From Deltaproteobacteria bacterium (lineage in GTDB: Bacteria > Acidobacteriota > Holophagae > Holophagales > Holophagaceae): 39,420 nt of DNA. Below are positions 3,874-37,474 of this stretch, piece after piece. The first letter of the stretch is position 1, and the number at the start of each line of letters is the position of its first letter. Both the position numbers and the translations under genes were made by a program. The notes beneath the pieces are model-generated. The model had not been told where the DNA came from. It searched no databases and saw only the letters and a list, made by a program, of their open reading frames with translations. The stretch spans positions 1 through 39,420 of the forward strand of contig JAIFMW010000078.1 of assembly GCA_020048105.1 (NCBI GenBank), written 5' to 3'.

Positions 3874-6690
3874 ATGATTGCCACCATTCTTGAATTGGCC
3901 TATAACCTCGCTCTTTTGGTGGCGCTCAGTGTGATTTCGGGTTTTATCCGCCAACGGCGTAGGCACCTAGCCTGGGGTCCGATTCTGCAAGGTTTGCTCT
4001 TCGGGGGTGCGGCGGTCATTGGCATGATGAAACCGCTGGTGTTAGGGCCAGGGCTCATTTTTGATGGTCGTTCGGTAATGCTGAGTCTTTGCGGGCTGTT
4101 CTTCGGGCCTGTGGCGGCGGGCGTGGCGGGTGGCCTGGCGCTGGTGTACCGGATCTATCTCGGAGGGCCCGGTGTCTACATGGGCGTGCTGGTCATCGCT
4201 TCCTCGGCCCTGCTGGGCCTGGCCTTTCATCAACGATGGATCTGCAAGGGCCAGTCGCCCACGGCTGGACGGCTCTGGTCGCTAGGCTTGCTCGTGCATA
4301 GCGTCATGCTCCTGTTGATGTTTACCCTGCCTGCCGGAACTGGGTTGGCCGTAATCAAGCGTTTGGGGCTGCCGATCCTCCTGGCCTATCCGCTGGTGAC
4401 GGTGGTGATTGGCAAGGTGCTTTCCTCCCAGGCCGCTGGCGTTCGCGCGGTGGAGGCGCTCAAGGAAAGCGAAGCAAAGCACCGCCTCCTCATCGAAAAC
4501 AGTCACGACATCATATACACCCTCAACATGGAAGGCGTCTTCACCTTTGTTTCACCGGCTTGGACCGTGCTCCTGGGGCATCCGATCGAACAGGTGAATG
4601 GACAGCCCTTCGAGCCCTTTGTTCATAAGGATGAGGTTGCGCTGTGCCAGGCCTGGCTGCAAAAGGTGATCGAAACGGGACAACGGCAAGAGGGCGTCGA
4701 ATACCGAGTGCGGCACCTGGATGGGGCCTGGAAGTGGCATACCTCGAGTGCGGTGCCGACCCGAAACGAACAGGGCTCGGTTACGGGTATCGAAGGCACG
4801 GCACGCGATATCACCGAGCGAAAAGCGGCAGAAGAAGCCTTGTGTGAGAAGAACGCCGAATTGGAGCGCTATTTCTCCTCGAGCCTGGATCTGCTGTGCA
4901 TCGCGGATACCGGCGGCCACTTTCTCCGGTTGAATCCCGAATGGGAAAAGGTTCTTGGGTACTCGCTTCAGGATCTTGAAGGGCGTTCGTTTCTTGAGTT
5001 GGTGCATCCCGAAGACATGGAAGGCACCCTTGCTGCCATGTCAAAACTCGATGCACAGGAGCAAGTGACAAGCTTTGAGAATCGATACCGCTGCAAAGAC
5101 GGTTCCTATCGATGGATTGAATGGCGGGCGCGGCCCCAAGGAAACCTGATCTACGCGGCGGCCACCGATATCACGGAGCGCAAACAGGCGAAACAGGCAC
5201 TGTATGAAAGCGAACGGAAATACCGAACCTTAATCGACCACCTTTCCGCAGGCATCGTGGTGCATGGTCCTGATACCGGCATCTTGATATCCAATGCGAT
5301 GGCGTCCATCCTTCTTGGGCTGACCGCCGAGCAGATGCAGGGGAAAACCGCCATGGATCCGCGCTGGTGCTTCCTGCGGGAAGATGGTTCGGCCATGCCG
5401 CTCTCGGATTACCCCGTCAATCGGGTGTTCGCATCGGGCGAGGGCTTCCAGAGTCAGGTTGTGGGGATCAGTTACCCGGAGCTTGCTGAACCGACCTGGG
5501 TGCTGTGCAATGCCTACCCCGTGAAGGATGCCAAGGGCCAGGTCGTGCAGGCGGTCATCACCTTTACCGATATCACCGATCGCAAAAAGGCCGAGGAAGC
5601 CCTCCAACACAGCGAACAGAAATTCCGCACCCTCTTCGAAAACCTGACGGAAGGCGTGGCCCTGCATGAACTCGTGACGGATTCAGCAGGTCAGACAATT
5701 GATTACCGTCTGCTGGCCGTGAATCCGGCCTACGAAACTCACACTGGCCTGGTCGCCGCCACCGCACCTGGCCTGCTCGGTACCGAGGTTTATGAGACCG
5801 AGCCACCACCCTATTTGAAGGAATACAGCCAGGTGGCTTTGGGTGGTGAGCCTTATGTCTTCGAGACCTTTTTCCCACCTCTCGAGAAACACTTCCGTAT
5901 CTCTGTGGTCTCGCCCAAAAAGGGTCAATTTGCCACGGTCTTCGAAGACATCACAGAGCGCAAGCGAAGCGAGGAGGAACTCAAGCAGAAGAATGCGGAG
6001 ATGGAGCGTTTCACTTACATGATCTCTCACGATCTCAAGAGTCCGCTGGTGACGGTGCGGACCTTCCTTGGCTACCTGGAACAGGATCTGGAACAAGGAA
6101 AGGCTGAGCGGGTGTCCAAGGATATGGACTTTATCCGCAGCGCCACGGGGAAGATGGGGCGCCTGCTGGAGGATTTGCTGGAAGTTTCCCGGGTGGGCCG
6201 AGTTGTGAATCCGCCCGTGCAAGTCAGCCTGCCGGATCTTATCGCGGATGCCCTGGCCGCCGTGGCGGGGTCGATCTCAAGCCGGGGCGTAGCGATTCAG
6301 GTAGCCGCCCCAGCCATCATGCTTTCCGGTGATCGACCTCGGCTGGAGGAAATCTGGCAAAACCTTGTGGAGAATGCCGTTAAGTACATGGGTGAGCAGC
6401 CTGCGCCTTGCATTGAACTGGGGGCCAAGGGCACTGGTGTCGACACGGTCTTTTACGTGAGTGATAACGGCATGGGCATCGACCCCAAGTTTCAGGACAG
6501 GGTGTTTGGCCTCTTCGAACAACTGGACGCTGCCAGCGAGGGTACGGGGCTTGGGCTGGCGCTGGTCAAGCGCATCGTGGAACTCAACGAGGGTCGAATC
6601 TGGCTCGAATCCGATGGCGTCGGTCGGGGCACCTGTTTTAGGTTTACCCTTCCCCTGGCGCTCAAGGGCCGGGCCAAGGAGAGGCGATGA
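3874..6690 (+). CDS. 5TMR-LYT-type membrane sensor multi-PAS histidine kinase (no receiver)
   Basis: N-terminal multi-TM region MIATILELAYNLALLVALSVISGFIRQRR...ILQGLLFGGAAVIGMMKPLVLGPGLIFDGRSVMLSLCGLFFGP; several PAS units ending DITERK; HisKA FTYMISHDLKSPLVTVRTFLGYLEQD; HATPase ENAVKY/DNGMGIDP/GTGLGLALVKRIVELNEGRIW. Confidence 0.9.
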   Translation: MIATILELAYNLALLVALSVISGFIRQRRRHLAWGPILQGLLFGGAAVIGMMKPLVLGPGLIFDGRSVMLSLCGLFFGPVAAGVAGGLALVYRIYLGGPGVYMGVLVIASSALLGLAFHQRWICKGQSPTAGRLWSLGLLVHSVMLLLMFTLPAGTGLAVIKRLGLPILLAYPLVTVVIGKVLSSQAAGVRAVEALKESEAKHRLLIENSHDIIYTLNMEGVFTFVSPAWTVLLGHPIEQVNGQPFEPFVHKDEVALCQAWLQKVIETGQRQEGVEYRVRHLDGAWKWHTSSAVPTRNEQGSVTGIEGTARDITERKAAEEALCEKNAELERYFSSSLDLLCIADTGGHFLRLNPEWEKVLGYSLQDLEGRSFLELVHPEDMEGTLAAMSKLDAQEQVTSFENRYRCKDGSYRWIEWRARPQGNLIYAAATDITERKQAKQALYESERKYRTLIDHLSAGIVVHGPDTGILISNAMASILLGLTAEQMQGKTAMDPRWCFLREDGSAMPLSDYPVNRVFASGEGFQSQVVGISYPELAEPTWVLCNAYPVKDAKGQVVQAVITFTDITDRKKAEEALQHSEQKFRTLFENLTEGVALHELVTDSAGQTIDYRLLAVNPAYETHTGLVAATAPGLLGTEVYETEPPPYLKEYSQVALGGEPYVFETFFPPLEKHFRISVVSPKKGQFATVFEDITERKRSEEELKQKNAEMERFTYMISHDLKSPLVTVRTFLGYLEQDLEQGKAERVSKDMDFIRSATGKMGRLLEDLLEVSRVGRVVNPPVQVSLPDLIADALAAVAGSISSRGVAIQVAAPAIMLSGDRPRLEEIWQNLVENAVKYMGEQPAPCIELGAKGTGVDTVFYVSDNGMGIDPKFQDRVFGLFEQLDAASEGTGLGLALVKRIVELNEGRIWLESDGVGRGTCFRFTLPLALKGRAKERR

Positions 6691-10600: not shown

Positions 10601-11641
10601 GGCGCAATCCTTGGGCTGGCCTCGGCCAACCTAGCTGCCCAGCCTGCGGGCAGCCCCACCCGGCAGGCCTTGGAAACCATCATTCGGGCCACCGAGCGGG
10701 GCGGGAAGATGGTCAAGGGCCTCCTCAGCTTCGCGCGGCAGAATCCGGCGGAGAGTCGGGAACTGGATATGAATGCCCTGCTTCTCGATGAGGTGAGCCT
10801 GCTGGAGCGCACCACCTTGGCCAAGGTTCGCCTCCAGACTGACTTTGCACTGGATCTGCGGGCCATGCGTGGAGATGCCAGCGCCCTGAGCAACGCCATC
10901 ATGAACCTCTGCGTCAACGCCGTGGATGCCATGCCGGACCAAGGCACCCTGACCCTGCACACCCGCAATGTTGACAACGACTGGATCGAAGTAGTGGTCG
11001 AGGATTCTGGCATCGGGATGCCTGCCGACGTTTTGGAGAAGGCTTTGGATCCTTTCTTCACCACCAAGGAAGTTGGCAAGGGCACTGGGCTCGGCCTTTC
11101 CACCGTGTACAGCACCGTGAAGGCCCACCATGGGCAACTGGAAATCCAGAGTCAACCCGGCCAAGGCACTCGGGTGATGCTGCGTTTCCCGGCCATCGAG
11201 CTCGTGCCGCTGATCCCTGAAGCAACGGCAGCACCAAGGGGCCAAATCTCCAAATCGGCGCTCTCCGTGTTGGTGGTGGATGATGACGAACTTATTCAGA
11301 GTTCCATGCTGGCGATTCTGGAGGTGTTGGGCCACAGCGCCACGGGCGTTGACTGCGGTGAGGATGCCCTGGCCAAACTCGAAGCCGGTTTCCAACCCGA
11401 TGTCATCATCCTGGACATGAACATGCCCGGACTGGGCGGTGCGGGAACCCTGCCGCGCCTTCGCCTGCTAAGGCCCACCACTCCGGTGCTGCTGGCCACT
11501 GGCCGCGTGGATCAATTCGCCTCGGATCTTGCGGCGGCGCATCCCCATGTAACCCTGCTCTCCAAGCCCTTCAGCATGAAGGAACTGCAACATCACCTCG
11601 CTACATTTGCCAACGACCCTCCTTCTGAAACGAGTCGGTGA
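7625..11641 (+). CDS. Hybrid histidine kinase: REC-PAS-GAF-multiPAS-HisKA-HATPase-REC
   Basis: N-terminal receiver [20 protein letters not shown]...; PAS units with DITDRK/DVTERN/DITERK; H-box [48 protein letters not shown]-terminal receiver [13 protein letters not shown]...[11 protein letters not shown]. Confidence 0.92.
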
Positions 11642-14600
11642 AGATGAGCCTGCCTAGGGAAATGCTGCCCAGAGGGATGCGATTCCTTTTTGGCCTTCCC
11701 GTGCCTTGGCTAGTTGTCTTGCTCCTGGCAGCTACGGTGATGGTTCCTGCCTGGGGTGCTACGCCACGCAAGGTGCGGCTTCAGCTGCGGTGGCAACACC
11801 AGTTTCAATACGCAGGGTATTACGCTGCCCAGGCACAGGGGTATTACCAGGCAGCCGGATTAGAGGTGGAAATCCTCACCAGTCAAACCACCGAAGATCC
11901 CGTGCAACAGGTGGTGCAGGGTAAGGCCGACTTCGGTGTGGGTTCCACGGATCTGCTTTTGTTGCGGCAGCAAGGCGTGCCCGTGGTGGCACTGGCAGTG
12001 ATTTTTCAGCATTCCCCCATGGTGCTCTTGACCCGCAAAGAGAGCGGGACACAGAGTATCCATGATCTGGCCGGGCGAAAGATCATGCTGGAACCGGGCT
12101 CATTGGAACTGCTGGCGTACCTTCGGAAAGTTGGAATCCCTTCCGGAAAATTCACCCAGCTGCCCCATGGGTTTCATCCCAAAGATCTCCTGACGGGGGC
12201 GGTCGATGCCATGTCCGCCTATGTCACGGATGAACCCTTCGAGCTGGAATCGGCGGGCCAGGAATATGTGCTCCATTCGCCGCGCTCCGTGGGGATCGAT
12301 TTCTACGGTGAGAACCTCTTTACCACCGAGCGCCAACTTGAGCAAAACCCGGAAATGGTGAAGGCCTTCCGTGCTGCGAGCCTGCAGGGGTGGGAATACG
12401 CCATGCAGCATCCGGAAGAATTGGTGCAGTTGATCTACACCCGCTATTCCCAACGGCACAGCCTTGAACACCTGCGCTTCGAGGCCAGCCAGATGGTGCC
12501 CCTGCTGCAAGCCAACCTGGTGGGAATTGGGCACATGAATCCCGGTCGCTGGCGGCATATTGCCGACACCTACGCCGAACTCGGCATGATCAATTCGAAT
12601 TTCGATTTCACGGGTTTTCTCTACGATTCCAATCCTCCGCCCCGGAATCTGGGCTGGTTGTACCGTTTTTTCGGCCTAGCAATCGTGGTGACAGGCGCCG
12701 TTTTGGCATTGGTTGTCTACATCTACCGGATCAATGTGCGGCTTCGGCGAGAGGTCGCTGAGCGCTGGCAAGCCCTAGAATCTCTGCAGGCAAGTGAGGC
12801 GAAACACCGGGTCCTGTTTCATGATTCACCCGACGCCTATCTGATTCTTTCCGATGGCATTTTTGTGGAATGCAACCGGGCCACCGAGGTCATGCTGCGA
12901 GGTGATCGCGCGAATATCATCGGTCAGTCGCCAAATATGATTTCTCCGGAATTTCAGCCGGATGGTCGCAAATCATCCCAGGCGGCCGAGGAGCAAATGG
13001 CCAAGGCTCTGCGCAATGGGGCCAGCACTTTTGAGTGGGCGCATCGCAGGCTGGATGGGTCGGAATTTTTGGTGGAGGTTTCCATCGCATCAATGGTGTT
13101 CGAGGGAAAACCAGCCCTGTTTACCACTTGGCGTGACATTACGGAGCGCAAGCAGGCGGAGACAGCCCTGAGGCGGGGTGAAGAAAAATTTCGATTCTTG
13201 TTTGAATTGTCACCCGTGGGTTTGGCCATGGTCAGCCATTCAACGGGCGCATTCCTGGAAGTCAACGAGGCGCTCCTACGCCAAACCGGTTATACGCGCG
13301 ATGAATTCCTGAAGCTGGAATTCTGGGATATCACGCCGAGTGAATACGAGGACCAAGAACAAAAGCAGCTCCGCGACTTGAATGAAAAAGGGCACTTTGG
13401 ACCCAACGAAAAGGAATACATCCGCAAGGATGGTTCGCGCTATCCCATCCGAATCAGTGGCGCCATTTTTGTGGATGGTGCAGGCGAAAAGGTGGTTTGG
13501 GGCATCATCGAAGACATCACTGAAAGCAACCAGGCCGAAGCCGATAAGGCCCAACTCGAAACTCAGAACCATCAGCTCAAGAAGGCCGAGAGCCTGAGTC
13601 TCATGGCAGGTTCCATAGCTCATCACTTCAATAACAAGCTGCAAACGGTGATGGCGAATCTGGAAGTCGTGAGCGCGCTCCCCAAGGATGCTGACCCGAC
13701 CCGCTTCCTCGCCATGGCCAAGCAAGGCGCTGAGAAAGCTGCGGAAGTCAGCCGCTTGATGTTGACCTATCTCGGGCAAACCGCGCTCAAACGCGAACCG
13801 TGTCGGCTGGTCGAATGCTGCCAGGCCGCACTATCGCTGCTTCAGAACACCTTGCCTAGCAACGCCACCCTGGAAACGGAATTCCCAAGTTGCGGCCCCG
13901 TGGTGAGCGCCAATGCCGAGCAGCTTCAGCAGCTCCTGACCAATTTGCTGACTAATGCTGGAGAGGCTCTGGCTGAGGGCCCGGGCACTGTGCGGCTCCG
14001 CATCCGAACCTGTTTGGCGAGCGACATTGCCGTTGCCCATCGCTTCCCCTATGGGTGGCAGCCAGATCAGGCGGACTATGCCTGCCTGGAGGTGGCGGAT
14101 ACCGGATGTGGGATTGCCAAGGCGGATTTGGAAAAGCTTTTCGATCCCTTCTACTCCACCAAATTTGTCGGGCGGGGCCTTGGGCTTTCGGTGGTCCTTG
14201 GCATCGTGCAGGCTCATGGCGCAGCCATTACGGTGGCGAGTGAACTGGGGCATGGCAGCATTTTCCGGGTCTATTTCCCTGTCGTTGCCGAGGTGGTGCC
14301 GGACCTTCCTGAGTCCAGCGTTCCGGTGCTTTCATCGGAAATGGCCGCTATCGGTGGCACGGTATTGTTGGTGGATGATGATCCCTTGCTGCTGGACGCG
14401 ATGCGGGCATTGATCGAGTTGCTGGGCTTTAAGGTGCTTACCGCGCAGGATGGCGTGGTCGCCCTGGAGGTGTTCCAGCAGCACCGGGCCGAGATTTACC
14501 TAGTTATCACCGATCTGACGATGCCGCGCCTGGATGGATGGGGAACCTTGAAGGCATTGCGGCAGTTGGAGCCAAATCTGCCGGTGATCCTGGCGAGTGG

Positions 14601-14721
14601 CTATGACAAGGCCCAAGTCCTAGCGGGAAATCACCCCGATCGCCCGCAGGCCTTTTTAAGCAAACCCTTCGGCATGGCGCAACTGCAGGAGGCATTGAAC
14701 CAAGCCACGAAGGGACAGTGA
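11638..14721 (+). CDS. Hybrid histidine kinase with NMT1/THI5-like periplasmic binding sensor, TM, PAS, HisKA-HATPase-REC
   Basis: Signal-like N-terminus then RKVRLQLRWQHQFQYAGYYAAQAQGYYQAAGLEVEILTSQTTEDPVQQVVQGKADFGVGSTDLLLLRQQG (NMT1/THI5-like pattern); TM FGLAIVVTGAVLALVVYIYRI; two PAS; H-box SIAHHFNNKLQTVMANLEV; receiver VLLVDDDPLLLDA. Start GTG 11638 (4-bp overlap) or ATG 11644. Confidence 0.9.
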   Translation: MKMSLPREMLPRGMRFLFGLPVPWLVVLLLAATVMVPAWGATPRKVRLQLRWQHQFQYAGYYAAQAQGYYQAAGLEVEILTSQTTEDPVQQVVQGKADFGVGSTDLLLLRQQGVPVVALAVIFQHSPMVLLTRKESGTQSIHDLAGRKIMLEPGSLELLAYLRKVGIPSGKFTQLPHGFHPKDLLTGAVDAMSAYVTDEPFELESAGQEYVLHSPRSVGIDFYGENLFTTERQLEQNPEMVKAFRAASLQGWEYAMQHPEELVQLIYTRYSQRHSLEHLRFEASQMVPLLQANLVGIGHMNPGRWRHIADTYAELGMINSNFDFTGFLYDSNPPPRNLGWLYRFFGLAIVVTGAVLALVVYIYRINVRLRREVAERWQALESLQASEAKHRVLFHDSPDAYLILSDGIFVECNRATEVMLRGDRANIIGQSPNMISPEFQPDGRKSSQAAEEQMAKALRNGASTFEWAHRRLDGSEFLVEVSIASMVFEGKPALFTTWRDITERKQAETALRRGEEKFRFLFELSPVGLAMVSHSTGAFLEVNEALLRQTGYTRDEFLKLEFWDITPSEYEDQEQKQLRDLNEKGHFGPNEKEYIRKDGSRYPIRISGAIFVDGAGEKVVWGIIEDITESNQAEADKAQLETQNHQLKKAESLSLMAGSIAHHFNNKLQTVMANLEVVSALPKDADPTRFLAMAKQGAEKAAEVSRLMLTYLGQTALKREPCRLVECCQAALSLLQNTLPSNATLETEFPSCGPVVSANAEQLQQLLTNLLTNAGEALAEGPGTVRLRIRTCLASDIAVAHRFPYGWQPDQADYACLEVADTGCGIAKADLEKLFDPFYSTKFVGRGLGLSVVLGIVQAHGAAITVASELGHGSIFRVYFPVVAEVVPDLPESSVPVLSSEMAAIGGTVLLVDDDPLLLDAMRALIELLGFKVLTAQDGVVALEVFQQHRAEIYLVITDLTMPRLDGWGTLKALRQLEPNLPVILASGYDKAQVLAGNHPDRPQAFLSKPFGMAQLQEALNQATKGQ

Positions 14722-15452: not shown

Positions 15453-16545
15453 ATGGCCATGGATAGGGTGTCGGGGCTGGAAGCCCTGAGCAAGGTTTTG
15501 GAGGAAGGAAACAGTGATTTTCTGCGGAGGGTGCTGCTGATGGGGCTCCAGGCGGTGATGGAGTCGGACGTGTCCGGGCTCTGCCAGGCGGGGCCTGGAG
15601 AACGAACGCCCTCACGGGAGAACCATCGGAACGGCTACCGGGATCGGGAGTTGGAGAGCCGACTGGGCACCCTTCCACTGGCCATTCCGAAGTTGCGGCG
15701 TGGAAGCTACCTGCCAGACTTCCTGGAACCGCGGCGCCGTTGGGAACAGGCCTTCGTGAACGTGGCGGCAGAAGCCTACGTGGTGGGCGTGAGCACGCGG
15801 AAGGTCGAAGCGCTGGTGGAAGCTCTGGGTTGCCGAGGGATGTCAAAGTCGGAGGTTTCACGGTTGGCTCAGGAACTGGATGGCGAGGTGGAATCCTTTC
15901 GGAACCGCCCCCTGGAAGGGCCGTTCCGCTACTTGTGGCTGGACGCGCTGGCGGTCATGGTGGCCATGGCCGTGAATGCGGAGGGCAAGCGCGAGGTGCT
16001 GGGCCTGACGGTGGCCGAAGGCGAGATGGAGAGTGCCTGGTCGGCGTTCCTGGAAAGTCTGGTGCAGCGTGGCCTCGCAGGCGTGGATCTGGTCATCTCG
16101 GATGCTCACGCCGGGCTGAAAGCCGCTGTCAGGAAGGTGTTGAACGGGGTGACCTGGCAGCGATGCCGGGTTCACTTTATGAGAAACGCCGCCGTGCGTC
16201 TGCCCAAGGCTATTCAGGAGCAGATGCTGGATCGGCTCAAACGGGTGTTCCAAGCTCCAACCAAGGAGGAAGCCCAGGCGCTGATCGTAGCTCTGGCGCG
16301 AGATACCGAGCGCAAGTACCCCGGCTTTGCGACCCTGCTCGACGAAGCCGTGGAGGACGTCACCGCCTTCATGGACTTCCACGAATGTGCTGGAGCGAGA
16401 GAACCGGGAACTCCGCCGCCGTTCCGATGTGGTGGGCATCTTCCCCAATCGGGCCGCAGTTCTGCGCCTGCTCGGAAGCCTGCTGCTCGACCAACACGCC
16501 GAGTGGGTCAGCGCCCGCATCGCCTATACCCGGATGGATGCGTGA
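15453..16545 (+). pseudogene. IS256-family (Mutator-type) transposase, frameshifted by an internal deletion
   Basis: RENHRNGYRDRELESRLGTLPLAIPKLRRGSYLPDFLEPRRRWEQA...YLWLDALAVMV...VISDAHAGLKAAV..WQRCRVHFMRNAAVRLPK; after AFMDF the coding frame moves to +1 ([43 protein letters not shown]), with the usual short segment before HSTNPLERLN missing. Confidence 0.88.
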
Positions 16546-16855
16546 AAAGAATTGAGTTCGAGCGTCCCCCCTGAACCCGGCCATGGACGGTGCCGGAGCC
16601 ATGGACAACCTGCGGTTGCCCACAGCCCCTTGGAAAGCCCTACGGCCTTTCCACACCGCCCACAGCCTGACGATCAGCAACAGAACTTTGACAATCTTAC
16701 GGAATCGGCTGCGCCGACCTTCCTACACCACTTGACGGGACACAGGCTCTCAGGGTGAACCAGAATCAAGTCTGACCAAACGCGGCTTCAGGCAAAAACG
16801 AATCAACTTCGATCAACTACCCGTAATTAACGTCTCAACGGTTGTCGCCCAGCAT

Positions 16856-16992: not shown

Positions 16993-17328
16993 TCACCGTC
17001 GCCAGATGTAGCGGTCGATACTTTCGGGCGCGAAGCCTACTTTGATCCAGAATTCCCGGGCGGTGTAGCGAACCCGATCGGCGATGAGGAAGGGGTATTG
17101 CTGTTTGAAGTGATCGATGACGGCTCGCGCATAGCCGTGTCCTTCGTATTCGGGGTAGATCATGATGGAAAAAACGGTGAATTGATCGTCCTCAATGCGG
17201 CAGCGGGATTTCCCTACTTGGGTTCCGGCCTGTTCGATATCGAACCAGTCGTAGTCACCCAGCGTCGGGGTGCGAGGTTGTTGAATCAGGGTAAGGTTGT
17301 GCCCAATCTCTACGGTCTCTGCGGTCAT
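16993..17328 (-). CDS. GNAT-family N-acetyltransferase-like protein
   Basis: From internal Met (MTAETVEIG...): VFSIMIYPEYEGHGYARAVIDHFKQQYPFLIADRVRYTAREFWIKVGFAPE, a GNAT acetyl-CoA-binding-like pattern; start overlaps the stop of the upstream deacetylase gene by 4 bp. Confidence 0.6.
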   Translation of the reverse strand: MTAETVEIGHNLTLIQQPRTPTLGDYDWFDIEQAGTQVGKSRCRIEDDQFTVFSIMIYPEYEGHGYARAVIDHFKQQYPFLIADRVRYTAREFWIKVGFAPESIDRYIWRR

Positions 17329-18080
17329 CCGGCGAACCCCTTGCAGAAGGCCCTGATATTGACGCCAAGGTCTTTTAAGTAGTAGCCGCCTTCCAAAACG
17401 GCAAAACGTCGACCGCGACACAGGCGCTCCGAAGCCCTGCGAATGAGGGTGCCGAGCCTTTCGAAATCCGCAGTGGCGAGTTTGTGGCCCACGTCGTGCA
17501 GGTAGGCGTCAAAGCCCGCGGAAACGGCGATGATATCCGTGGGCGGAAGGGCCACAAGGTGGGCTTCCACAAGTTCGAGGTATTCCTTGGCGGAAGCGGC
17601 AAACGGATTGAAGACCTCGGTCTGGGGCCAGGAAGCCAAGAGCTTGCGCGTGCCATCTCCGGTGTGGGCATCGATATCGATTACGAAGGCATTTTCGATT
17701 CGTTTTTCCGCGCGCAACACAAAAAGCGCCACGGCGATGTTATTGAAGGTGCAGTGACCCCAGGCCTCGCTTCGGGAGGCGTGGTGTCCCGGTGGCCGCA
17801 CGCAGGCAAAGGTGGGTTCTCCGCCATAGGACTGCTGGGCCGCCAGAATGGCGCCTCCCGCGGCTAGGCACGCCATGGAGAACCGGGGCGGATCCTGGGC
17901 GATCTGTTGCACGTAGACTGGGTCGTGGACCAGCGATAATTGCTCGTGAGTGGCTGCCACGGGGGCTAGATGAGTCCAGGCCTCAAGTCCGCTAACAGCA
18001 GCCTCCATGCGCCCTGGCATGGCTGCATTATCTTGGGCGTACCCGGAATCGCAAAAACGCCCATCGAAAACGATTTTCAT
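17325..18080 (-). CDS. Histone deacetylase-family (HDAC/AcuC/AphA superfamily) amidohydrolase
   Basis: CVRPPGHHASRSEAWGHCTFNNIAVA, FVIDIDAHTGDGT, IIAVSAGFDAYLHD, AVLEGGYYLKDLG are canonical HDAC-superfamily motifs. Confidence 0.9.
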   Translation of the reverse strand: MKIVFDGRFCDSGYAQDNAAMPGRMEAAVSGLEAWTHLAPVAATHEQLSLVHDPVYVQQIAQDPPRFSMACLAAGGAILAAQQSYGGEPTFACVRPPGHHASRSEAWGHCTFNNIAVALFVLRAEKRIENAFVIDIDAHTGDGTRKLLASWPQTEVFNPFAASAKEYLELVEAHLVALPPTDIIAVSAGFDAYLHDVGHKLATADFERLGTLIRRASERLCRGRRFAVLEGGYYLKDLGVNIRAFCKGFAG

Positions 18081-18087
18081 GGCGCCT

Positions 18088-18705
18088 TCAATCCTGAATT
18101 ACAGAATGGCGAACATTGCCGAGGCAGGTGCGAATGTAGCCGATGGGGTCTTGGGTGATGGGGTGACCATGACCGGGAAAAATGGTGCGGATCGCGAGGT
18201 GGGAAAGACGCTCCAACGTATCGACGTAGGCCTGGGAATAGGAGCCTTGATGATCGGTAATCCGATAAAGGGTATCGCCGGAAAACAGGGTGCCGGTTTC
18301 CGGCAGAAAGATGCAAATGGAGTCCTCGGAATGCCCCGGTGTATGCAGCAGAGTGGCCTGCTGATCGCCGACTTTGAGGGCCATGCCATCTCGGATTGTT
18401 TGGTGATTCCGACCCTGGGGAAACCAGGAATAGGTCCGTGGCTCGAACTGCTCGTCGATGCCCGGTAAGCCGCCGGAATGATCGAAATGACCGTGGGTGA
18501 GCAGGACTTGCTCCACGGCCTTTTTGCCAATGCCCTTGGGTTGCTGAGCCATTTTTTGAAGGAAAAAATGCAGATTGGCGGGATCGGTGCTTCCCGTATC
18601 AATGAGGGTGTTGCAGTCCGTGGGTGCATTGTTCTCGCCCAACACCCAATACACCGCGCAGGAGTAATCGGTGGGGTCATCGCGGTGGAGCGGGACAATA
18701 CGCAT
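18088..18705 (-). CDS. Metallo-beta-lactamase-fold hydrolase
   Basis: TLIDTGSTDPANLH...VLLTHGHFDHSGGLPG...LLHTPGHSEDSICIFLPETGTLFSGDTLY...IFPGHGHP: MBL metal-binding motifs. Confidence 0.92.
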   Translation of the reverse strand: MRIVPLHRDDPTDYSCAVYWVLGENNAPTDCNTLIDTGSTDPANLHFFLQKMAQQPKGIGKKAVEQVLLTHGHFDHSGGLPGIDEQFEPRTYSWFPQGRNHQTIRDGMALKVGDQQATLLHTPGHSEDSICIFLPETGTLFSGDTLYRITDHQGSYSQAYVDTLERLSHLAIRTIFPGHGHPITQDPIGYIRTCLGNVRHSVIQD

Positions 18706-18708
18706 GGC

Positions 18709-19323
18709 TCAAACAACCGGTTTCTGGAAGAGTGGGGTGCCCGGTTCCAACCGTTTGAATCGTTCCGCAAAGGCCGCAGGCATTGCCTGGGCGCCATCCA
18801 AGGCCAGGTACCCGCCAGGTACCAGCGACTGATGGAACATTTCCAGGACCTTGATCTGATTTTCCGGTGAGAAATGCATCAGCACATTTTTGCAAACGAT
18901 CAGGGATTGGCCGGTTTCAGGCGGTACCAGGGTCAGCAGATCGTGTTGAATGTAGCGAACCCGATCCCGAATTTCTTGGGTGAGTTCGAACACCTCAGGG
19001 TTTTCGGTGGCTTCGAAATAGAGGTCACGATGCTCCTGGGGCACCCAAAAAACATCGGTGCGACTGTAGCGGCCTTTGCGGATCTGCTCGGCGAACTGCG
19101 GAAAGCTGCTTTCTTCGTAGTCCGTGGCGAGAATATCGACGTTGCGAAAGGGGAAGGGCCGCAGCTTCGAGGCGAATAGGATGGCCAAGGTAAAGGGCTC
19201 TTCGCCCGTGGCACACCCCGCATCCCACACCCGAATCGACCGCCAGTGAGCCAGGGCAGGGATGGCGATTTCACCAATGGCATTCAGCGCATCGGTATCC
19301 CTGAAAAAGGAAGTGTAGGCCAT
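18709..19323 (-). CDS. CheR-type protein methyltransferase, catalytic domain only
   Basis: TSFFRDTDALNAIGE...IRVWDAGCATGEEPFTLAI...ILATDYEESSF...IVCKNVLMHFSPENQIKVLEMFHQSLVPGGYLALDG; begins at the TSFFRD segment with no N-terminal helical domain. Confidence 0.85.
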   Translation of the reverse strand: MAYTSFFRDTDALNAIGEIAIPALAHWRSIRVWDAGCATGEEPFTLAILFASKLRPFPFRNVDILATDYEESSFPQFAEQIRKGRYSRTDVFWVPQEHRDLYFEATENPEVFELTQEIRDRVRYIQHDLLTLVPPETGQSLIVCKNVLMHFSPENQIKVLEMFHQSLVPGGYLALDGAQAMPAAFAERFKRLEPGTPLFQKPVV

Positions 19324-19988: not shown

Positions 19989-20645
19989 ATGCCTGATTTT
20001 GCCAAGACGAGTCCCGCCACTCCCAGCGATCTGGCCGCCCTGCGTCAGCGGATGGAATTACTGGATTTGGTGCTGCGAGAATCCACGGATCCGATTTTCA
20101 ATATCCTCGAAGATGGCACCTACCAATTCGTGAATCAGGCTTTTTCTAGGCCCTTCCAGCGCGAGCCCGAAGCCATTATTGGCCATAAAATCTGGGATAT
20201 TTTTTCCGCCGAAGAAGCCGAAAAGCGCATGACTGTTATTCGTACGGCATTTGCCACGCGGCAGGCAATCGTCTTCGAGGTCAGGGTTCCCACCGCCACC
20301 GGGGATTCGTTCTACCTCACTTCGGTGAAACCCATCCTGGAAGAAGGCGGGCGGGTTGCTTCAGTGGTCTGCATCTCCAAAGACATCACCGAACGCAAGC
20401 GGGTGGAACTGGAGCGGGAGGACCTCATCCAGAGCCTTCAAGCAGCCCTGCTCAAGGTTCGAACCCTTTCGGGCCTGCTGCCCATCTGCGCCCACTGCAA
20501 GAAAATTCGGGATGATGATGGTTACTGGACCCAGATCGAATGCTACATCCGCGAGCACTCTCAGGCGGAATTTACCCATGGAATTTGCCCGGATTGTAAG
20601 GAAACGTTCTTTCCCGCAGCCCACCAAACCATTCTGGAGGATTGA
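19989..20645 (+). CDS. PAS domain protein with C-terminal Cys-rich (CxxC...CxxC) tail
   Basis: PAS: LDLVLRESTDPIFNILEDGTYQFVNQAFSRPF...SKDITERK; tail LPICAHCKKIRDDDGYWTQIECYIREHSQAEFTHGICPDCKE. Confidence 0.85.
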   Translation: MPDFAKTSPATPSDLAALRQRMELLDLVLRESTDPIFNILEDGTYQFVNQAFSRPFQREPEAIIGHKIWDIFSAEEAEKRMTVIRTAFATRQAIVFEVRVPTATGDSFYLTSVKPILEEGGRVASVVCISKDITERKRVELEREDLIQSLQAALLKVRTLSGLLPICAHCKKIRDDDGYWTQIECYIREHSQAEFTHGICPDCKETFFPAAHQTILED

Positions 20646-20722
20646 GGGGTCACCGATATTCAAGCCCGGTGCGACTCGGGCCGATGCGTTCTCGTGAATA
20701 CGTCTGCCTTAAGGAATTCTCG

Positions 20723-21847
20723 ATGAGTCTCGATCCCCTTCGCGTCATGGTGGTGGATGACACCGTGACCTACCGGCGCATCCTCTCCGATGTCATCGAA
20801 GGGATGGGCGATGCCGAGGTTGTGGCCACCGCACCCCAGGGGCGTTTGGCGCTGGCGCGCCTCGAGCAGGGGCCCGTGGATCTGGTTCTGCTGGATCTGG
20901 AAATGCCCGAAATGGATGGGCTGGAGACCCTGGGGCATATCCGCAGGCTCTATCCGGAAACCTCGGTGGTGATGATCAGCGGCCAAAACGCTAGGGCAGC
21001 GGAAGCCACCATTCGGGCCCTGGAGCAGGGCGCCATCGATTTCATCCGCAAGCCCGAAGGCAATGATCCCGATGCCAGCCGCCAGGAACTGAAGGAAACC
21101 CTGAAACCCTTGTTGCGACATGTGCGCATGCGCCACAATCTCCGCGCCGAGGCCTCGACCCCTGCGGTCATCACCTCCAAACCAGTGGCGGTGCCCGTGC
21201 CGGTGGCGCCTCGGATCGTTTTGACCCCCCACGCTGCCCCCATGCCCGCTCGCTTTGAGGTGCTTGGGGTGGGTGTCTCCACCGGCGGTCCGAATGCGCT
21301 GGGAGATTTCATCCCGTCTCTCCCGGCCAATTTCCCCCTGCCCATCCTGCTGGTTCAACACATGCCTCCAGGCTTCACCGCTTCCCTCGCCGAGCACCTG
21401 GCCAAGCGCTCCGCGCTTCAGGTTTGCGAAGCCACCGAAGGCGAAACCATTCGTCCCGGCCGAGTTTATATCGCTCCTGGCGGTCGGCACATGGTGGTGC
21501 GGCGACGCCCTGCCAATGGTGCGGAACCCGAAGCTCTGATTGTTGGCCTAAATGAAAACCCCGCCGAGAACAGCTGTCGCCCTTCGGTGGATGTGCTCTT
21601 TCGCTCCATGGCTGCGCAGTACGATGGCGGCATCCTGGCGGTGATTATGACGGGCATGGGCAACGATGGTCGGGAAGGGGTGCGCGCCATGAAGCGAGGC
21701 GGCTGTCACTGCCTTTCCCAAAGCGCCGAAAGCTGTGTGGTCTATGGCATGCCACTGGCCGTGGACGAGGCCGGGCTTTCCGATGAGCGGGTTCCCTTGG
21801 CGGCCCTGGCCTACCGGGTGAATCAATTGGCAGCGCGGGGGCGATGA
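20723..21847 (+). CDS. cheB: Chemotaxis response regulator protein-glutamate methylesterase CheB
   Basis: Receiver RVMVVDDTVTYRRILSDVIEG...LLDLEMPEMDGLETL; methylesterase GVSTGGPNALGDFIPSLP...LVQHMPPGFTASLAEHLA...MTGMGNDGREGVRAMKRGG. Start ATG 20723. Confidence 0.95.
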   Translation: MSLDPLRVMVVDDTVTYRRILSDVIEGMGDAEVVATAPQGRLALARLEQGPVDLVLLDLEMPEMDGLETLGHIRRLYPETSVVMISGQNARAAEATIRALEQGAIDFIRKPEGNDPDASRQELKETLKPLLRHVRMRHNLRAEASTPAVITSKPVAVPVPVAPRIVLTPHAAPMPARFEVLGVGVSTGGPNALGDFIPSLPANFPLPILLVQHMPPGFTASLAEHLAKRSALQVCEATEGETIRPGRVYIAPGGRHMVVRRRPANGAEPEALIVGLNENPAENSCRPSVDVLFRSMAAQYDGGILAVIMTGMGNDGREGVRAMKRGGCHCLSQSAESCVVYGMPLAVDEAGLSDERVPLAALAYRVNQLAARGR

Positions 21848-21848
21848 C

Positions 21849-22697
21849 ATGGCGACTGAAACCATCCAGCCCGTTGAATTCAAGCTCATGCGCAGCTACA
21901 TCGAAAAAAATTGCGGCATTTTGCTGGGCGAAGAGAAGGCCTACCTGATTGAAACCCGGCTGGCAGGGTTGTTGGCGGAAACAGGCAGTGCGGACTATGC
22001 GGCCTTTTACCGCCTGGCTTCCACGGAAAGCGGCACGGCCTTGCGCGACAAGATCGTGGATGCCATGACCACGAATGAAACCCTCTGGTTTCGCGATGGG
22101 CACCCCTTTCAGATCCTGAAAAACGTGCTGTTGCCTGTGTACGCCGCGCAGTTGCTTTCCGGTCAGCGATTCCGCATCCGTATTTGGTCCGCGGCCAGTT
22201 CCACGGGGCAGGAGCCCTATTCCATCGCCATGACGATTCAGGAATATTGTCGGGAGCATCCAGGTGTGCGGCCCGATCAATTCGAGATCATCGCTTCGGA
22301 TATCTCGCCTTCGGCCTTATTCCTGGCCCGCGCCGCCCGATACGACGCTGCGGCCCTGGGGCGAGGCATGCCCGATGAATACCGCGCCCGGTATTTCAAG
22401 CAGGATGGCCAAGTGTGGGTATTGGAGGATGCCGTTAAAAAAATGGTCACCCTGCGCAAGTTCAATTTGCAGGATCCACTCGACCCCCTCGGGAACTTCG
22501 ATATCGTCTTCTGCCGCTACGTCACGATCTATTTTTCGGATGCCTTCAAGCGCCAGATCTTCGAGGGCATCGCGCGACTGACCTCCAAGGGCGGGTATTT
22601 TTTCACCAGCGCCGTTGAGAACCTTCAGAACTCCCCGGATCTCTTTGAACCCTTGTCGCATGGTTCGGGAACCTACTACCGCAGCCGGATTGACTAG
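21849..22697 (+). CDS. cheR: CheR chemotaxis protein methyltransferase (full length)
   Basis: EFKLMRSYIEKNCGILLGEEKAYLIETRL...TTNETLWFRDGHPFQILKNVLLP...IWSAASSTGQEPYSIAM...DIVFCRYVTIYFSDAFKRQIFEGIARLTSKGGYFF. Confidence 0.95.
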   Translation: MATETIQPVEFKLMRSYIEKNCGILLGEEKAYLIETRLAGLLAETGSADYAAFYRLASTESGTALRDKIVDAMTTNETLWFRDGHPFQILKNVLLPVYAAQLLSGQRFRIRIWSAASSTGQEPYSIAMTIQEYCREHPGVRPDQFEIIASDISPSALFLARAARYDAAALGRGMPDEYRARYFKQDGQVWVLEDAVKKMVTLRKFNLQDPLDPLGNFDIVFCRYVTIYFSDAFKRQIFEGIARLTSKGGYFFTSAVENLQNSPDLFEPLSHGSGTYYRSRID

Positions 22698-22706
22698 GGG
22701 AACGCC

Positions 22707-23087
22707 ATGGCCAATAAAATTTTGTCTGTTGATGATTCCGCGACCATGCGTCGGATCGTGAGTCGTGTGGTTGCCACTCTCGGAATGGAGATCGTCGAGG
22801 CTGCCAATGGTCTGGAAGCCATGGCTATTTTGGAAAAGGATTACCAGGATATTGCCCTGGTAGTGCTGGATGTGAACATGCCCGAAATGGACGGTAGCGA
22901 AACGCTGCTGGCCATTAAGAAGGATCCACGCTTTCAATCGCTCCCCGTCATGATGCTGACCACCGAATCGGAGCGGGCCCGCATTCTGGATTTCATTCAC
23001 AACGGCGCGGCCAATTACCTTGTGAAACCCTTCGCTCCCGATGATCTTGCGGCCAAAATAGCGGCCTGCCTTGGGGATTTCTTTTGA
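22707..23087 (+). CDS. cheY: CheY-like single-domain response regulator
   Basis: KILSVDDSATMRRIVSRVVATLGMEIVEAANGLEAMAIL...LVVLDVNMPEMDGSETLLAIK...MLTTESERARILDF..GAANYLVKPFAPDDLAAKI. Confidence 0.92.
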   Translation: MANKILSVDDSATMRRIVSRVVATLGMEIVEAANGLEAMAILEKDYQDIALVVLDVNMPEMDGSETLLAIKKDPRFQSLPVMMLTTESERARILDFIHNGAANYLVKPFAPDDLAAKIAACLGDFF

Positions 23088-26100: not shown

Positions 26101-26219
26101 CTATGGATCTCGCCGAGAAGCATCCTCTTGTCACTCTGATGACAAAGCCCTTTGGTATGAAGGAACTCCAAAAACAACTGACCTCGCTTATGGGGCCCCC
26201 GAATGGGGCCATCCCATGA
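23124..26219 (+). CDS. Multi-PAS hybrid histidine kinase with C-terminal receiver
   Basis: Repeated PAS units (DITDRK, EITERK, DISEHK, DITAHR, DITARK); H-box [50 protein letters not shown]; receiver VLFVDDDPLIQSSMHAIL...[11 protein letters not shown]. Confidence 0.93.
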   Translation: MSISTDPDAPEVSKEPSSEWETRYWDLLNGVPYGVVYHDATGAIISANAVAQRILGLTLDQLQGRTSMDPCWRSIHEDGSVFPGDTHPASVALRTGQAVNDVVMGVFNSDGGDLRWITISALPLFHSDEIRPHQVLVSIVDITDRKRAEASLHEAEWKFRALFEMGPIGVAYHRMIYDDSGKPVDYVFLDANQKYIDLTGVDPRGRTVLQAFPGIENDPFDWIGTFGRVARTGKSIHFEQHLQVNDRWYDCVGYQYEPDHFVAAFFEITERKRIENALREAHQFNASIIHSAQEGVIVYGPDLTYLVWNPFMEAVSGVSAKEVLGKHPLEVFPFLEKAGVMDRLRKILAGEEVGTLDFPYHVPQTGRSGWSSDRSAPLRNTQGEIIGVIGTVSDISEHKRNEEALRASEARYRSILNASPDAIVTSDLGGLVLGVPPLALKLFHAEHEDQLLGHLLTDFIAPEDRERAANRIGLMLQGVMTGPGEYRALRVDGTTFFMEANGEFVRDAEGHPTSIVFVLRDITAHRQAQDSLRESNELLSLFVHHSPVYAYLKEVTPTESRVLQASENFQAMIGIPGSKMVGKTMTELFPAELAAKMAADDWDVVSKGIALEFEEALNERNYITLKYPIRQGPRTLLAGFTIDITARKQAEEQQLHLQAQLQQAQKMESLGSLAGGVAHDMNNVLGAILGLASVHLEIQPANSPAHRAFDTISQAAIRGGKMVKSLLNFARQSPGEEREVDMNEILREEVRLLERTTLAKIRLEMDLASNLRPMLGDAAALTHAFMNLCVNAVDAMPSSGTLTLRTRNVDNDWIEVLVEDTGIGMSPQVLERAMDPFYTTKEVGKGTGLGLSMVYSAVKAHRGQMEIQSLPGHGTSVRMRFPVCEAKVTAPQGSVVEEKSEAAGRGLCVLFVDDDPLIQSSMHAILEALGHEVSAAFCGEDALAKLEAGYCPDVVILDMNMPGLGGIGTLPRLRQLRPTLPVLLATGRADQAAMDLAEKHPLVTLMTKPFGMKELQKQLTSLMGPPNGAIP

Positions 26220-29044
26220 TTTCCAATCTTGTCGAGCTGATGAACAATCTCGCCATTTTGGTGGCCCTCAGTCTTGTTTCAGGCTTCATCCGGCAGCGCC
26301 GTGACCTGAAAGTTTGGGGAAACATTCTGCAAGGGGTGCTCTTCGGGGGCGCTGCAATCCTTGGAATGCTGCGGCCTGTGGCCTGGGGCCCAGGGCTCAT
26401 CATGGACGGTCGTTCAGTGATGATCAGTCTTTGCGGTCTGTTTTTTGGCCCCATTGCTGGAACCCTTGCGGGTGGAATTACGCTTCTGTATCGAGTCTTT
26501 TTGGGTGGGCAGGGCGTGGCTCTGACCCTCTGGGGAATTCCCACTCAAGTCATCATGGGGATTGGCTTTTACTATTGGTGGACCCACAAGGGGAAGCCCC
26601 TGACAGCCCTGCGCTTGTATGGCTTTAGCGTGGCGATTCACTTGGTTTTTATTTCAATAATGGTTGCGGTGCTTGGCTTCGAGACCAGTCGGCGGTTTTT
26701 GATTCCGGTCCTGGTGGCCTATCCCTTGGTTGCTCTTTTGATCGGCAAGATTCTTTCCACTCAGGAGGTGGGGTTTCGTGCCGTGGAGTCCTTACGGAAT
26801 AACGAGAAACGCCTAGACGATATTTTGAATTCGGTGGATGCCTTGATCTACATCAAGGATGTTCAGGGCCGCTACACCTACGTGAATCGCAAGGTCTGCG
26901 AACTCTTTGGCCACACCGCCCACAACATTATTGGCAAGCGGGATGACGCCTTTTTCTCGGGCGGATCCCTGGCCGAAATTGTACAGAGCGATCGTCCTGT
27001 GATTGAACAAGGCGAGACGATCGCACGCGAGGAGATTGATCTAAGCGATGCCGATGGAAGATTGCACACCTTCTGGTCGGTGAAGATCCCGCTCAAGGAT
27101 GCAAGCGGGGCCGTCTGCGGACTCTGCGGTACGTCAACGGACATTACGGATCGGAAAGTGACTGAGGCGGCCCTTCGGGACAGCGAAGAACGCTACCGGC
27201 GCATTACGGAGGGCCTAACGGACTATCAGTACCGGGTGCGAGTTGAGCATGGGCAGGCCATGGAGACCACCCACGGGCCGGGTTGCGAAACTATCACCGG
27301 GTACTCGGCCCAGGACTTTGCCGACAATTCCTATCTCTGGTTCACGATGATCGCGCCGGAGGATCGCGATCAGGCTCGAGTTCTTGCGGCACAGAGGCTG
27401 AATGGGCAAGATTCCGACCCCTTCGAGCACCGCATTTACCGCAAGGACGGGGCCCTGCGCTGGGTGAGTGATACCTGCATTCTCCACAGGGACGGCGAGG
27501 GAAATCTACTGGCCTACGATGGTGTCGTCGAGGACATAACGGAACGCAAAGCCTCTGAGGAAGCGCTGCGGCAAAGCGAAGAGCGCTTTCATGGCTTGCT
27601 GCAAAGCGTGGACTTCGCGGCCGTCAAAAGCTATGCCCCCGATGGCACGACCTTATTTTGGAATAAGGCCTCCGAACGGCTCTTTGGATACTCCGCTGAG
27701 GAGGCCGTCGGCCGCAGCCTCCTCGACCTGATCATTCCGAAGGAAATGCAGGCCGACGTGAAACAGGCCATGCAGAAAATGTGGGAGACGGGCCAACCCA
27801 CTCCTGCCTCGGAGCTTTCACTCGTGCGCAAGGATGGATCCCGAATTGCGGTTTATTCGAGCCACGCCATTGTTCGGGTACCCGGGCGTGAGCCCGAGAT
27901 GTTCTGCATGGATATCGATCTCACGGATCGCAAGCGGCTCGAAGCACAGCTCCATCAATCCCAAAAAATGGAAAGCCTCGGCATCCTGGCCGGTGGCGTG
28001 GCGCACGATATGAACAATGTGCTTGCGGCTGTGCTTGGCTTGGCCTCTCTGCATCTGGATATTCAGCCACCCGAGAGTTCAGCGCGCCGGGCCTTTGCCA
28101 CCATCACCAAGGCTTGCGATCGAGGCGTGAGTTTGATTCAGAGCCTTCTCGGCTTTGCTCGCAAGGGTTTGGCCGAGGAGAAGGCCTTGGACATGAACAC
28201 CCTGATTCAGGATGAGGTGCGCCTTCTCGAGCGCACCACCCTTGCTCGCGTTCGCTTGGAAATGGATTTGGCAGCGGATCTTCGGCCCATACAAGGGGAT
28301 GCCAGCGCCCTCACTCACGTATTGATGAATCTGTGCGTCAATGCTGTGGATGCCATGGCCGTTAATGGCACGTTGACCCTGCGCACTCGCAATCTGGACG
28401 ACGATTGGATCGAGGTGCAAGTGGAGGATAACGGGTGCGGGATGTCGAAGGACGTCTTGGAGAAAGCCTTGAATCCCTTTTTCACTACAAAAGAACCCGG
28501 CAAGGGCACTGGACTCGGCCTATCCATCGCCCATAGCACCATTGCGGCGCATCACGGACGAATGGAAATTCAAAGTGAACTCGGTCGCGGCACAACGATA
28601 TCGCTGCGATTCCCGGCCTGTGATCCTGCAACCTTCGAAGCCGAAGTCGCGCCGTTGCATCGTGGTGAGATTTCTCAGGCGAGTCTGCGGGTTCTGCTCG
28701 TGGATGATGACGAACTGATTCAGGGCTCCATGCAAGCGATTCTGGAAACGCTCGGCCACACGGTGGAAATTGCTCCCAGCGGCGAGGCTGCCCTTGCCAA
28801 GCTTGAGGAGGGACTCGAGCCCGATGTGGTGATTCTGGACATGAACATGCCCGGGCTCGGCGGCGCTGGCACCCTGCCGTGTCTTCGGCGCGCGCGTCCT
28901 GCGCTACCGGTACTGCTTGCCACGGGACGAGCCGACCAAACGGCCCTGGACCTTGTGGCCGCTCACGCCATGGTCACCCTGATGCCCAAGCCCTTCGGCA
29001 TCAGGGAACTGCAAAGAAACTTGGAGTCTCTGCAGCCGCGGTAG
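26216..29044 (+). CDS. 5TMR-LYT-type membrane sensor multi-PAS hybrid histidine kinase with C-terminal receiver
   Basis: N-terminus MISNLVELMNNLAILVALSLVSGFIRQRRDLKVWGNILQGVLFGGAAILGMLRPVAWGPGLIMDGRSVMISLCGLFFGP, closely similar to 3874-6690; H-box [21 protein letters not shown]; receiver [19 protein letters not shown]. Overlaps previous gene 4 bp (ATGA). Confidence 0.93.
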   Translation: MISNLVELMNNLAILVALSLVSGFIRQRRDLKVWGNILQGVLFGGAAILGMLRPVAWGPGLIMDGRSVMISLCGLFFGPIAGTLAGGITLLYRVFLGGQGVALTLWGIPTQVIMGIGFYYWWTHKGKPLTALRLYGFSVAIHLVFISIMVAVLGFETSRRFLIPVLVAYPLVALLIGKILSTQEVGFRAVESLRNNEKRLDDILNSVDALIYIKDVQGRYTYVNRKVCELFGHTAHNIIGKRDDAFFSGGSLAEIVQSDRPVIEQGETIAREEIDLSDADGRLHTFWSVKIPLKDASGAVCGLCGTSTDITDRKVTEAALRDSEERYRRITEGLTDYQYRVRVEHGQAMETTHGPGCETITGYSAQDFADNSYLWFTMIAPEDRDQARVLAAQRLNGQDSDPFEHRIYRKDGALRWVSDTCILHRDGEGNLLAYDGVVEDITERKASEEALRQSEERFHGLLQSVDFAAVKSYAPDGTTLFWNKASERLFGYSAEEAVGRSLLDLIIPKEMQADVKQAMQKMWETGQPTPASELSLVRKDGSRIAVYSSHAIVRVPGREPEMFCMDIDLTDRKRLEAQLHQSQKMESLGILAGGVAHDMNNVLAAVLGLASLHLDIQPPESSARRAFATITKACDRGVSLIQSLLGFARKGLAEEKALDMNTLIQDEVRLLERTTLARVRLEMDLAADLRPIQGDASALTHVLMNLCVNAVDAMAVNGTLTLRTRNLDDDWIEVQVEDNGCGMSKDVLEKALNPFFTTKEPGKGTGLGLSIAHSTIAAHHGRMEIQSELGRGTTISLRFPACDPATFEAEVAPLHRGEISQASLRVLLVDDDELIQGSMQAILETLGHTVEIAPSGEAALAKLEEGLEPDVVILDMNMPGLGGAGTLPCLRRARPALPVLLATGRADQTALDLVAAHAMVTLMPKPFGIRELQRNLESLQPR

Positions 29045-34835: not shown

Positions 34836-34856
34836 CTTGCCAAATCGGCAAGGAGG
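34836..34856 (+). promoter_or_regulatory. Possible Shine-Dalgarno-overlapping hairpin upstream of hydC
   Basis: cttgcc-aaatc-ggcaag stem whose 3' arm runs into the aaggagg before ATG 34864. Confidence 0.3.
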
Positions 34857-34863
34857 CAAACGC

Positions 34864-35370
34864 ATGCATACAGCTGAAACCGAAGCCCCGCTTATCTCGC
34901 GGCAGTTCACCTCGGTGCTCCGCATCCTGGAGTCCTATCATCACGATAGTTCCAAGCTGGTGCCGATCCTCCAGGCCGTGCAAGAGGAATACCGCTACCT
35001 GCCGGAAGAAGTCATGACGTTTGTGGCCACGGCGCTCGATATTTCACCGGCTCGAGTCTTTGGTGTGGCGACCTTCTACAGTCATTTCGCCCTGGAGCCC
35101 AAGGGCAAGTATGTGGTCCGCATCTGCGATGGCACGGCCTGTCACGTGAAGGGGAGCCAAGACATTGTGGATGTTCTGACGGAGCGTCTGAAGTTGCCCA
35201 AGGGCAAGAAGACCACGCCCGACATGCTCTTTACCTTGGAAACCGTGAGCTGCCTGGGTGCCTGCGGGTTGGCCCCGGCGGTGGTCATCAACGACGACGT
35301 GCATGGACAGATGAACGCCGAGCGCACCAAGGCTCTCATCGATCAGATCTGCGTGGAGGAAGGCCTGTGA
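34864..35370 (+). CDS. hydC: NuoE-like [2Fe-2S] subunit of NAD-linked [FeFe]-hydrogenase
   Basis: ESYHHDSSKLVPILQAVQEEYRYLPEEVMTFVATALDISPARVFGVATFYSHFALEPKGKYVVRICDGTACHVKGS...SCLGACGLAPAVVINDDVHGQ. Confidence 0.92.
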   Translation: MHTAETEAPLISRQFTSVLRILESYHHDSSKLVPILQAVQEEYRYLPEEVMTFVATALDISPARVFGVATFYSHFALEPKGKYVVRICDGTACHVKGSQDIVDVLTERLKLPKGKKTTPDMLFTLETVSCLGACGLAPAVVINDDVHGQMNAERTKALIDQICVEEGL

Positions 35371-37271: not shown

Positions 37272-37279
37272 AAAAAATT

Positions 37280-37445
37280 CACCACAGAGGATACAAAGGA
37301 CACAGAGAAGGAAAAAAGATGAAAAGAACAGACACAGAGGTGGAAAGAAAGGCACGAAGGTTGTCCCTTCCAAGGTTCATCCAGGTTGGCTTGGTATCTA
37401 GATCTGTGTCTTTCTTTGCTCTGTGTCCTTTGTGCCTCTGTGGTG
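37280..37445. repeat. Long palindromic element between hydB and hydA (caccacagagg..acaaaggacacagag type)
   Basis: Arms caccacagaggatacaaaggacacagag (37280-37307) and ctctgtgtcctttgtgcctctgtggtg (37419-37445) are near-perfect inverted repeats. Confidence 0.88.
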
Positions 37446-37474
37446 ACCCCATCTTTTAAAAACAAGGACGAACG

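Follow-up and report, generated by a model that had tools for sequence, protein, structure and literature searches.

Chemoreceptor adaptation is generally taught as the work of two opposing enzymes, CheR, which methylates, and CheB, which demethylates. What, then, is to be made of a chemosensory locus that encodes both of these and also a second CheR-type methyltransferase, in tandem with a hydrolase, a deacetylase and an acetyltransferase? The locus lies in a 39,420-nucleotide stretch of Holophagaceae DNA (contig JAIFMW010000078.1), the whole of which is referred to here as the window. The ORF list and the sequence place four consecutive genes on the minus strand, encoding a short CheR-type SAM methyltransferase (18709..19323, 204 aa), a metallo-β-lactamase (MBL)-fold metallohydrolase (18088..18705, 205 aa), a compact class II HDAC-like deacetylase (17325..18080, 251 aa) and a minimal GNAT acetyltransferase (16993..17328, 111 aa). 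The first two junctions are gaps of 3 and 7 bp, respectively, and the third is a 4-bp ATGA overlap between the deacetylase and acetyltransferase genes. An earlier note on this DNA had described a compact minus-strand operon with this spacing, and its coordinates were reproduced exactly.

The CheR-type protein of the cassette matches PF01739 at 8e-36 and consists of the SAM domain only. Pfam returned no match in it to the all-α N-terminal domain CheR_N (PF03705), which is also without a match in the CheR of locus L181, and none to TPR. All 14 cassette homologues that were aligned start at an FFRD motif, and the catalytic residues and SAM domain are kept across phyla. The hydrolase (PF00753, Lactamase_B, 1.3e-23) carries a full dinuclear metal-ligand set, residues H71, H73, D75, H76, H125, D144 and H179 being invariant in an alignment of 18 homologues, each of which has the metal motif HxHxDH. 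Two further genes were seen at other loci. One, in L110, encodes another MBL paralogue and lies immediately past the cassette on the other strand (4765-5352, minus strand); the other encodes an extra methyltransferase-like protein of ~208 aa with a weak Methyltransf_25 match (L077:2157-2783, also L074, L080, L083, L102, L104 and L106). The latter, which usually occupies the interval between CheR and MBL, is found in cassettes of ANME-type archaea and in one locus each of the Planctomycetota and the deltaproteobacteria.

The deacetylase matches PF00850 (Hist_deacetyl) at 7.3e-35, and its catalytic residues, comprising the His pair H99 and H100, D135, the Asp-His-Asp zinc ligands (D137, H139 and D191) and the Tyr Y233, are invariant among 44 aligned homologues. 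Where the DxHH motif normally has its second His, most of these sequences have Thr instead. The AlphaFold model of the window protein (pLDDT 96.3) has a TM score (TMq) of 0.88 to 5ji5 and of 0.81-0.88 to structures of HDAC4, HDAC6 and HDAH; among solved structures, the closest are class II HDACs and the bacterial HDAH, and the protein is ~50-120 residues shorter than most of these structural relatives. The acetyltransferase scores 26.2 bits (1.1e-5) against Acetyltransf_7, just under the cut-off of 27, and its homologues in L064 and L181 exceed the cut-off for Acetyltransf_1. Its AlphaFold model (pLDDT 94.8) has a GNAT fold, with 119 matches in the PDB at E <= 0.001 and GNAT enzymes among the best of these. 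Judged from their sequences, the enzymes of the cassette look catalytic rather than vestigial.

A scan with the HDAC alignment, covering one genome per prokaryote species, retained 80 loci, of which 62 belong to the compact subfamily and 18 encode ordinary HDACs at ~30% identity; neighborhood profile searches covered these loci, the window and the sister locus L034. The same tiny GNAT lies downstream of the deacetylase in 52 of the 59 compact-subfamily loci with room for it, and the complete order CheR-MBL-HDAC-GNAT is present in 15 loci outside the Holophagaceae, distributed over the Spirochaetota, Desulfobacterota, others labeled Deltaproteobacteria, Methanosarcinales including ANME-2, Latescibacterota and Planctomycetota. 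Within the Holophagaceae the cassette GNAT is found in 14 of 77 genomes, and in the loci first looked at from four other genomes the order is complete, a fifth being cut by a contig end. The earlier note had named a lack of gene-order conservation outside this strain as the finding that would count against it; the search was run, and the order is conserved both in the family and beyond. In profile searches of the 18 ordinary HDAC loci, which served as controls, cassette-type GNAT or CheR was absent from every one, and this, together with conservation across phyla, rules out chance clustering. Many of the cassette loci come from MAG contigs; single contigs 2.6-5.2 Mb long (G024, G515, G534 and others) carry the cassette GNAT too, so a binning artifact is not the explanation. 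Viral carriage was considered and rejected, no relative having been found in viral_contigs, as was plasmid carriage, for which the 84 matching records all fell below 60% identity (27-36% among the matches listed) and correspond to ordinary HDACs. A role in anti-phage defense was likewise set aside, the sole PADLOC match being a weak one of CheR to mads_2 at 21 bits.

The tree of deacetylases resolves the compact subfamily as a clade with 100/100 support, separate from the ordinary HDACs, and with a midpoint root the members that lack a GNAT are mostly its earliest branches. Pairwise distances among the four protein families correlate (r 0.81-0.97), likewise when the Holophagaceae are left out, from which it follows that the four genes have traveled together. 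The tree can be read as a single assembly of the cassette followed by loss of CheR and MBL in the Betaproteobacteria and Ignavibacteria. The early-branching compact HDACs L088, L093, L095-L097, L099, L105 and L107, one of them labeled Helarchaeota, have neither a GNAT nor a constant neighbor.

The divergent chemosensory neighbor of the cassette in the window is a CheB methylesterase (20642..21847, plus strand; CheB_methylest 2.8e-62, with Response_reg), and beyond this on the same strand lie a canonical CheR complete with N-terminal domain (21849..22697; PF01739 2.4e-45, PF03705 8.9e-9) and a CheY-type receiver (22707..23087) that is 81-90% identical to the cassette-side CheY of L031, L033 and L034. 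CheB divergently adjoins the cassette in L058 and L060 too and is also present in L034, where CheA, CheW and a poly-HAMP receptor are encoded in addition to CheB, CheR and CheY. The genome from which the window comes encodes CheA, a CheW-like protein and two HAMP_2 receptors on its contig 202. In Desulfobacula (L064) the two sets of genes run together in the order receptor-CheR-MBL-HDAC-GNAT-CheR-CheD-CheY-CheX-CheB-CheA. Frequent neighbors of the cassette in general are CheA, CheW, CheB, CheD, CheX, CheY and receptors built of tandem HAMP_2 units, and a Che marker is present in 23 of the 41 loci with at least 9 kb of sequence. The chemosensory setting that the earlier note had pointed out recurs across phyla, and the linkage is frequent, not universal: no Che gene was found within ~10 kb of the HDAC-GNAT pairs L059, L062, L071, L079, L098 and L109. 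Since such pairs exist, the acetyl pair may have wider uses.

The receptors themselves are of a defined kind. Of the 33 loci with any MCP, 32 encode a receptor containing HAMP_2 units, the exception being L077 (seven examples were checked against Pfam). In L100 and L075 the cassette has other MCP matches at a distance shorter than, or about equal to, that of the HAMP_2 receptor. At the level of genomes, and uncorrected for phylogeny, HAMP_2 is found in 11 of 14 Holophagaceae with the cassette GNAT versus 12 of 63 without it, and in 18 of 22 Methanosarcinia with it versus 21 of 216 without. A HAMP_2 match is absent from three cassette-bearing Holophagaceae and four archaeal genomes, which are fragmented assemblies. 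Among the bacterial receptors linked to the cassette, 14 are complete, and 12 of these end in a pentapeptide tail of the CheR type (aromatic-x-x-aromatic), versus ~10% of chemoreceptors in general (PMC7390727); the two receptors of the window genome lack this tail. No Lys or Glu within the HAMP_2 units separates cassette-bearing from cassette-free genomes. As a separate observation, the receptors of methanogen clusters with writers only (L181-L190) mostly end in E-H-x-L-V, unlike the cassette-free poly-HAMP receptors of the same class, and this tail is possibly a docking motif.

Partial cassettes indicate which components belong together. A search with the GNAT profile, independent of the presence of an HDAC, sampled three further groups beyond the Holophagaceae and recovered the acetyltransferase in 12 of 291 genomes of the class to which L064 belongs, in 22 of 238 Methanosarcinia and in 2 of 349 genomes of a betaproteobacterial order. 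Eleven methanosarcinial loci carry CheR and GNAT with neither HDAC nor MBL, in the order receptor-CheW-CheR-GNAT in ten of them; in the other, L195, CheW and the receptor are further away. Among desulfobacterial loci, L154 and L160 have CheR-GNAT and L156-L158 have CheR-MBL-GNAT. In 60 loci with enough flanking sequence, all recovered via HDAC or GNAT so that the counts are biased, MBL is accompanied by CheR in 27 of 28 cases, CheR occurs without MBL in 13, and HDAC occurs without GNAT in seven, six of them early-branching and one (L089) within the main clade. Because MBL is rarely found without CheR, and HDAC rarely without GNAT, this nested presence fits an arrangement in which MBL would be the eraser for CheR and HDAC the eraser for GNAT.

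The reading that we favor, tentatively and with a little less than even confidence, is that the cassette is an accessory module that writes and erases carboxyl-methyl and acetyl marks on poly-HAMP chemoreceptor complexes. The short CheR would add carboxyl-methyl groups from SAM, and the GNAT acetyl groups from acetyl-CoA, to the complex of receptor and CheW; the HDAC-like enzyme would strip the acetyl groups, and the MBL hydrolase would cleave the methyl ester (or some different ester, or a thioester). The two marks might then set the sensitivity of the array and would also report the supply of SAM and acetyl-CoA. The genetic linkage, the intact active sites of HDAC, MBL and CheR, the GNAT fold, the association with chemosensory genes and poly-HAMP receptors and the existence of writers-only forms are observed; the identity of the substrates, the pairing of MBL, as a methylesterase, with CheR, and the effect on signaling are what we infer. 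A point against a methylesterase role for MBL is that the established methylesterase, CheB, is often encoded as well, so that there is no obvious need of a second esterase. A more ambitious form of the proposal would give poly-HAMP arrays a second adaptation code, made of acetyl groups, and a second methylation pair with an MBL methylesterase unrelated to CheB, spanning bacteria and archaea and coupling sensory gain to acetyl-CoA and SAM; this we regard as rather unlikely. The writer/eraser pair for acetylation suggested by the earlier note is made plausible by the conserved HDAC-GNAT unit, the chemistry itself being inferred; the thioesterase-like activity that the same note gave the hydrolase is no more than putative.

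The marks need not fall on receptors. The acetyl pair could instead target a response regulator, CheY or another receiver, with CheR and MBL acting separately on receptors: a CheY is encoded close to the cassette in the window and in L058, L060, L064 and L102, and in E. coli the deacetylation of CheY by CobB changes chemotaxis (PMC2883070). That precedent shares with our proposal the control of chemotaxis proteins by acetylation, but CobB is an NAD-dependent sirtuin encoded elsewhere, whereas the eraser considered here is HDAC-like and stands in an operon with its writer. The writers-only methanosarcinial loci gave no match to CheY across 13 kb, and it is the receptor, not CheY, that is the constant neighbor, so that we consider a response regulator an improbable target. 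Nor need the substrates be proteins, and to the idea that the enzymes synthesize and degrade a small acylated compound (a polyamine, a lactone or some other signal) sensed by the poly-HAMP receptor we give the same low weight. The MBL, HDAC and GNAT folds each include enzymes of small molecules, the models nearest to the window hydrolase are glyoxalase II and lactonase, and SpeG polyamine acetyltransferases are among the fold matches of the GNAT model in the PDB. The polyamine deacetylase HDAC10 has an acidic gatekeeper residue after an Asp zinc ligand, however, and this position is a gap in the HMMER alignment of the window deacetylase to HDAC6; moreover, nothing biosynthetic is common to the loci, and the CheR and CheW of the minimal unit point to proteins.

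Could the cassette proteins be enzyme-derived sensors or scaffolds that modify nothing? A model for this is ODP, a diiron oxygen sensor of spirochete (Treponema) chemotaxis that also has an MBL fold and also belongs to a chemosensory operon, and the window hydrolase matches the Pfam ODP family weakly, at 21.7 bits against a cut-off of 27.2. The motif of flavodiiron and ODP proteins is HxExD, in place of which all 18 of the MBL homologues have HxHxDH, and we accordingly reject an identity of the hydrolase as an ODP-type diiron sensor. With the catalytic residues of HDAC and CheR conserved as well, a purely sensory or structural role for the cassette is very unlikely. Scarcely more probable, in our estimation, is a general protein-acetylation pair of the AcuA/AcuC kind that merely happens to lie near chemosensory genes. 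AcuA and AcuC reversibly acetylate acetyl-CoA synthetase and resemble the pair described here in that a GNAT serves as writer and is encoded with a metal-dependent eraser of the HDAC type, and the HDAC-GNAT pairs with no Che gene nearby would suit such a role; set against it are the Che markers in over half of the loci with sufficient sequence and the common occurrence of CheR-GNAT without HDAC. The likeness to AcuA/AcuC drawn in the earlier note is one of composition only; the cassette deacetylase is compact and, among solved structures, closest to class II HDACs and HDAH, its context is chemosensory, and no acs-like gene stood out in the ORF list of the window.

Among the known systems close to the module that we propose is CheR/CheB/CheD adaptation itself, in which a CheR SAM methyltransferase is likewise encoded in chemosensory clusters, often beside receptors with pentapeptide tails. 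The cassette differs in that its CheR lacks the N-terminal domain and is additional to a canonical CheR and CheB, and in that it brings an MBL hydrolase, an HDAC and a GNAT. The CheR-TPR proteins of alternative chemosensory pathways (PMC3447774) are similarly non-canonical CheR proteins in specialized chemosensory clusters, but the cassette CheR has no TPR match, and the main text of that paper makes no mention of a deacetylase, acetyltransferase or hydrolase. A literature search that covered few subscription papers found none linking a deacetylase and an acetyltransferase to a CheR/MBL chemosensory operon, and the four-gene cassette is apparently undescribed. With its two added enzyme pairs beside a defined class of receptor, the cassette would extend the picture of adaptation to two chemical marks, and poly-HAMP receptors would have a regulatory partner specific to them. 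Its frequent place next to chemosensory genes suggests that in some microbes acetylation, besides methylation, tunes the chemoreceptors. HDAC-type deacetylation of signaling proteins could also be tested in such dedicated systems, bacterial as well as archaeal, with a short list of candidate substrates.

Several other genes of the window deserve a brief mention. Just downstream of the GNAT gene is a Mutator/IS256-type transposase (15453-16574, plus strand), the Pfam match of which ends at profile position 326 of 379, so that it looks truncated or frameshifted at its end. Further along, a gene at 11638-14721 (plus strand) encodes a 1027-aa fusion in which an NMT1/THI5-like periplasmic-binding-protein domain is joined to PAS, histidine kinase and receiver domains, and two large proteins (3874-6690 and 26216-29044, plus strand) whose N-terminal membrane segments closely resemble each other are seemingly paralogous sensors flanking the cassette. 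Toward its C terminus, the PAS protein encoded at 19989-20645 (plus strand) is rich in Cys (CAHCKK...CPDC), and this stretch could bind metal. Finally, three genes at 34837-39070 (plus strand) resemble, by eye, those for NuoE-, NuoF- and ferredoxin/NuoG-type subunits and perhaps constitute a hydrogenase or dehydrogenase operon.
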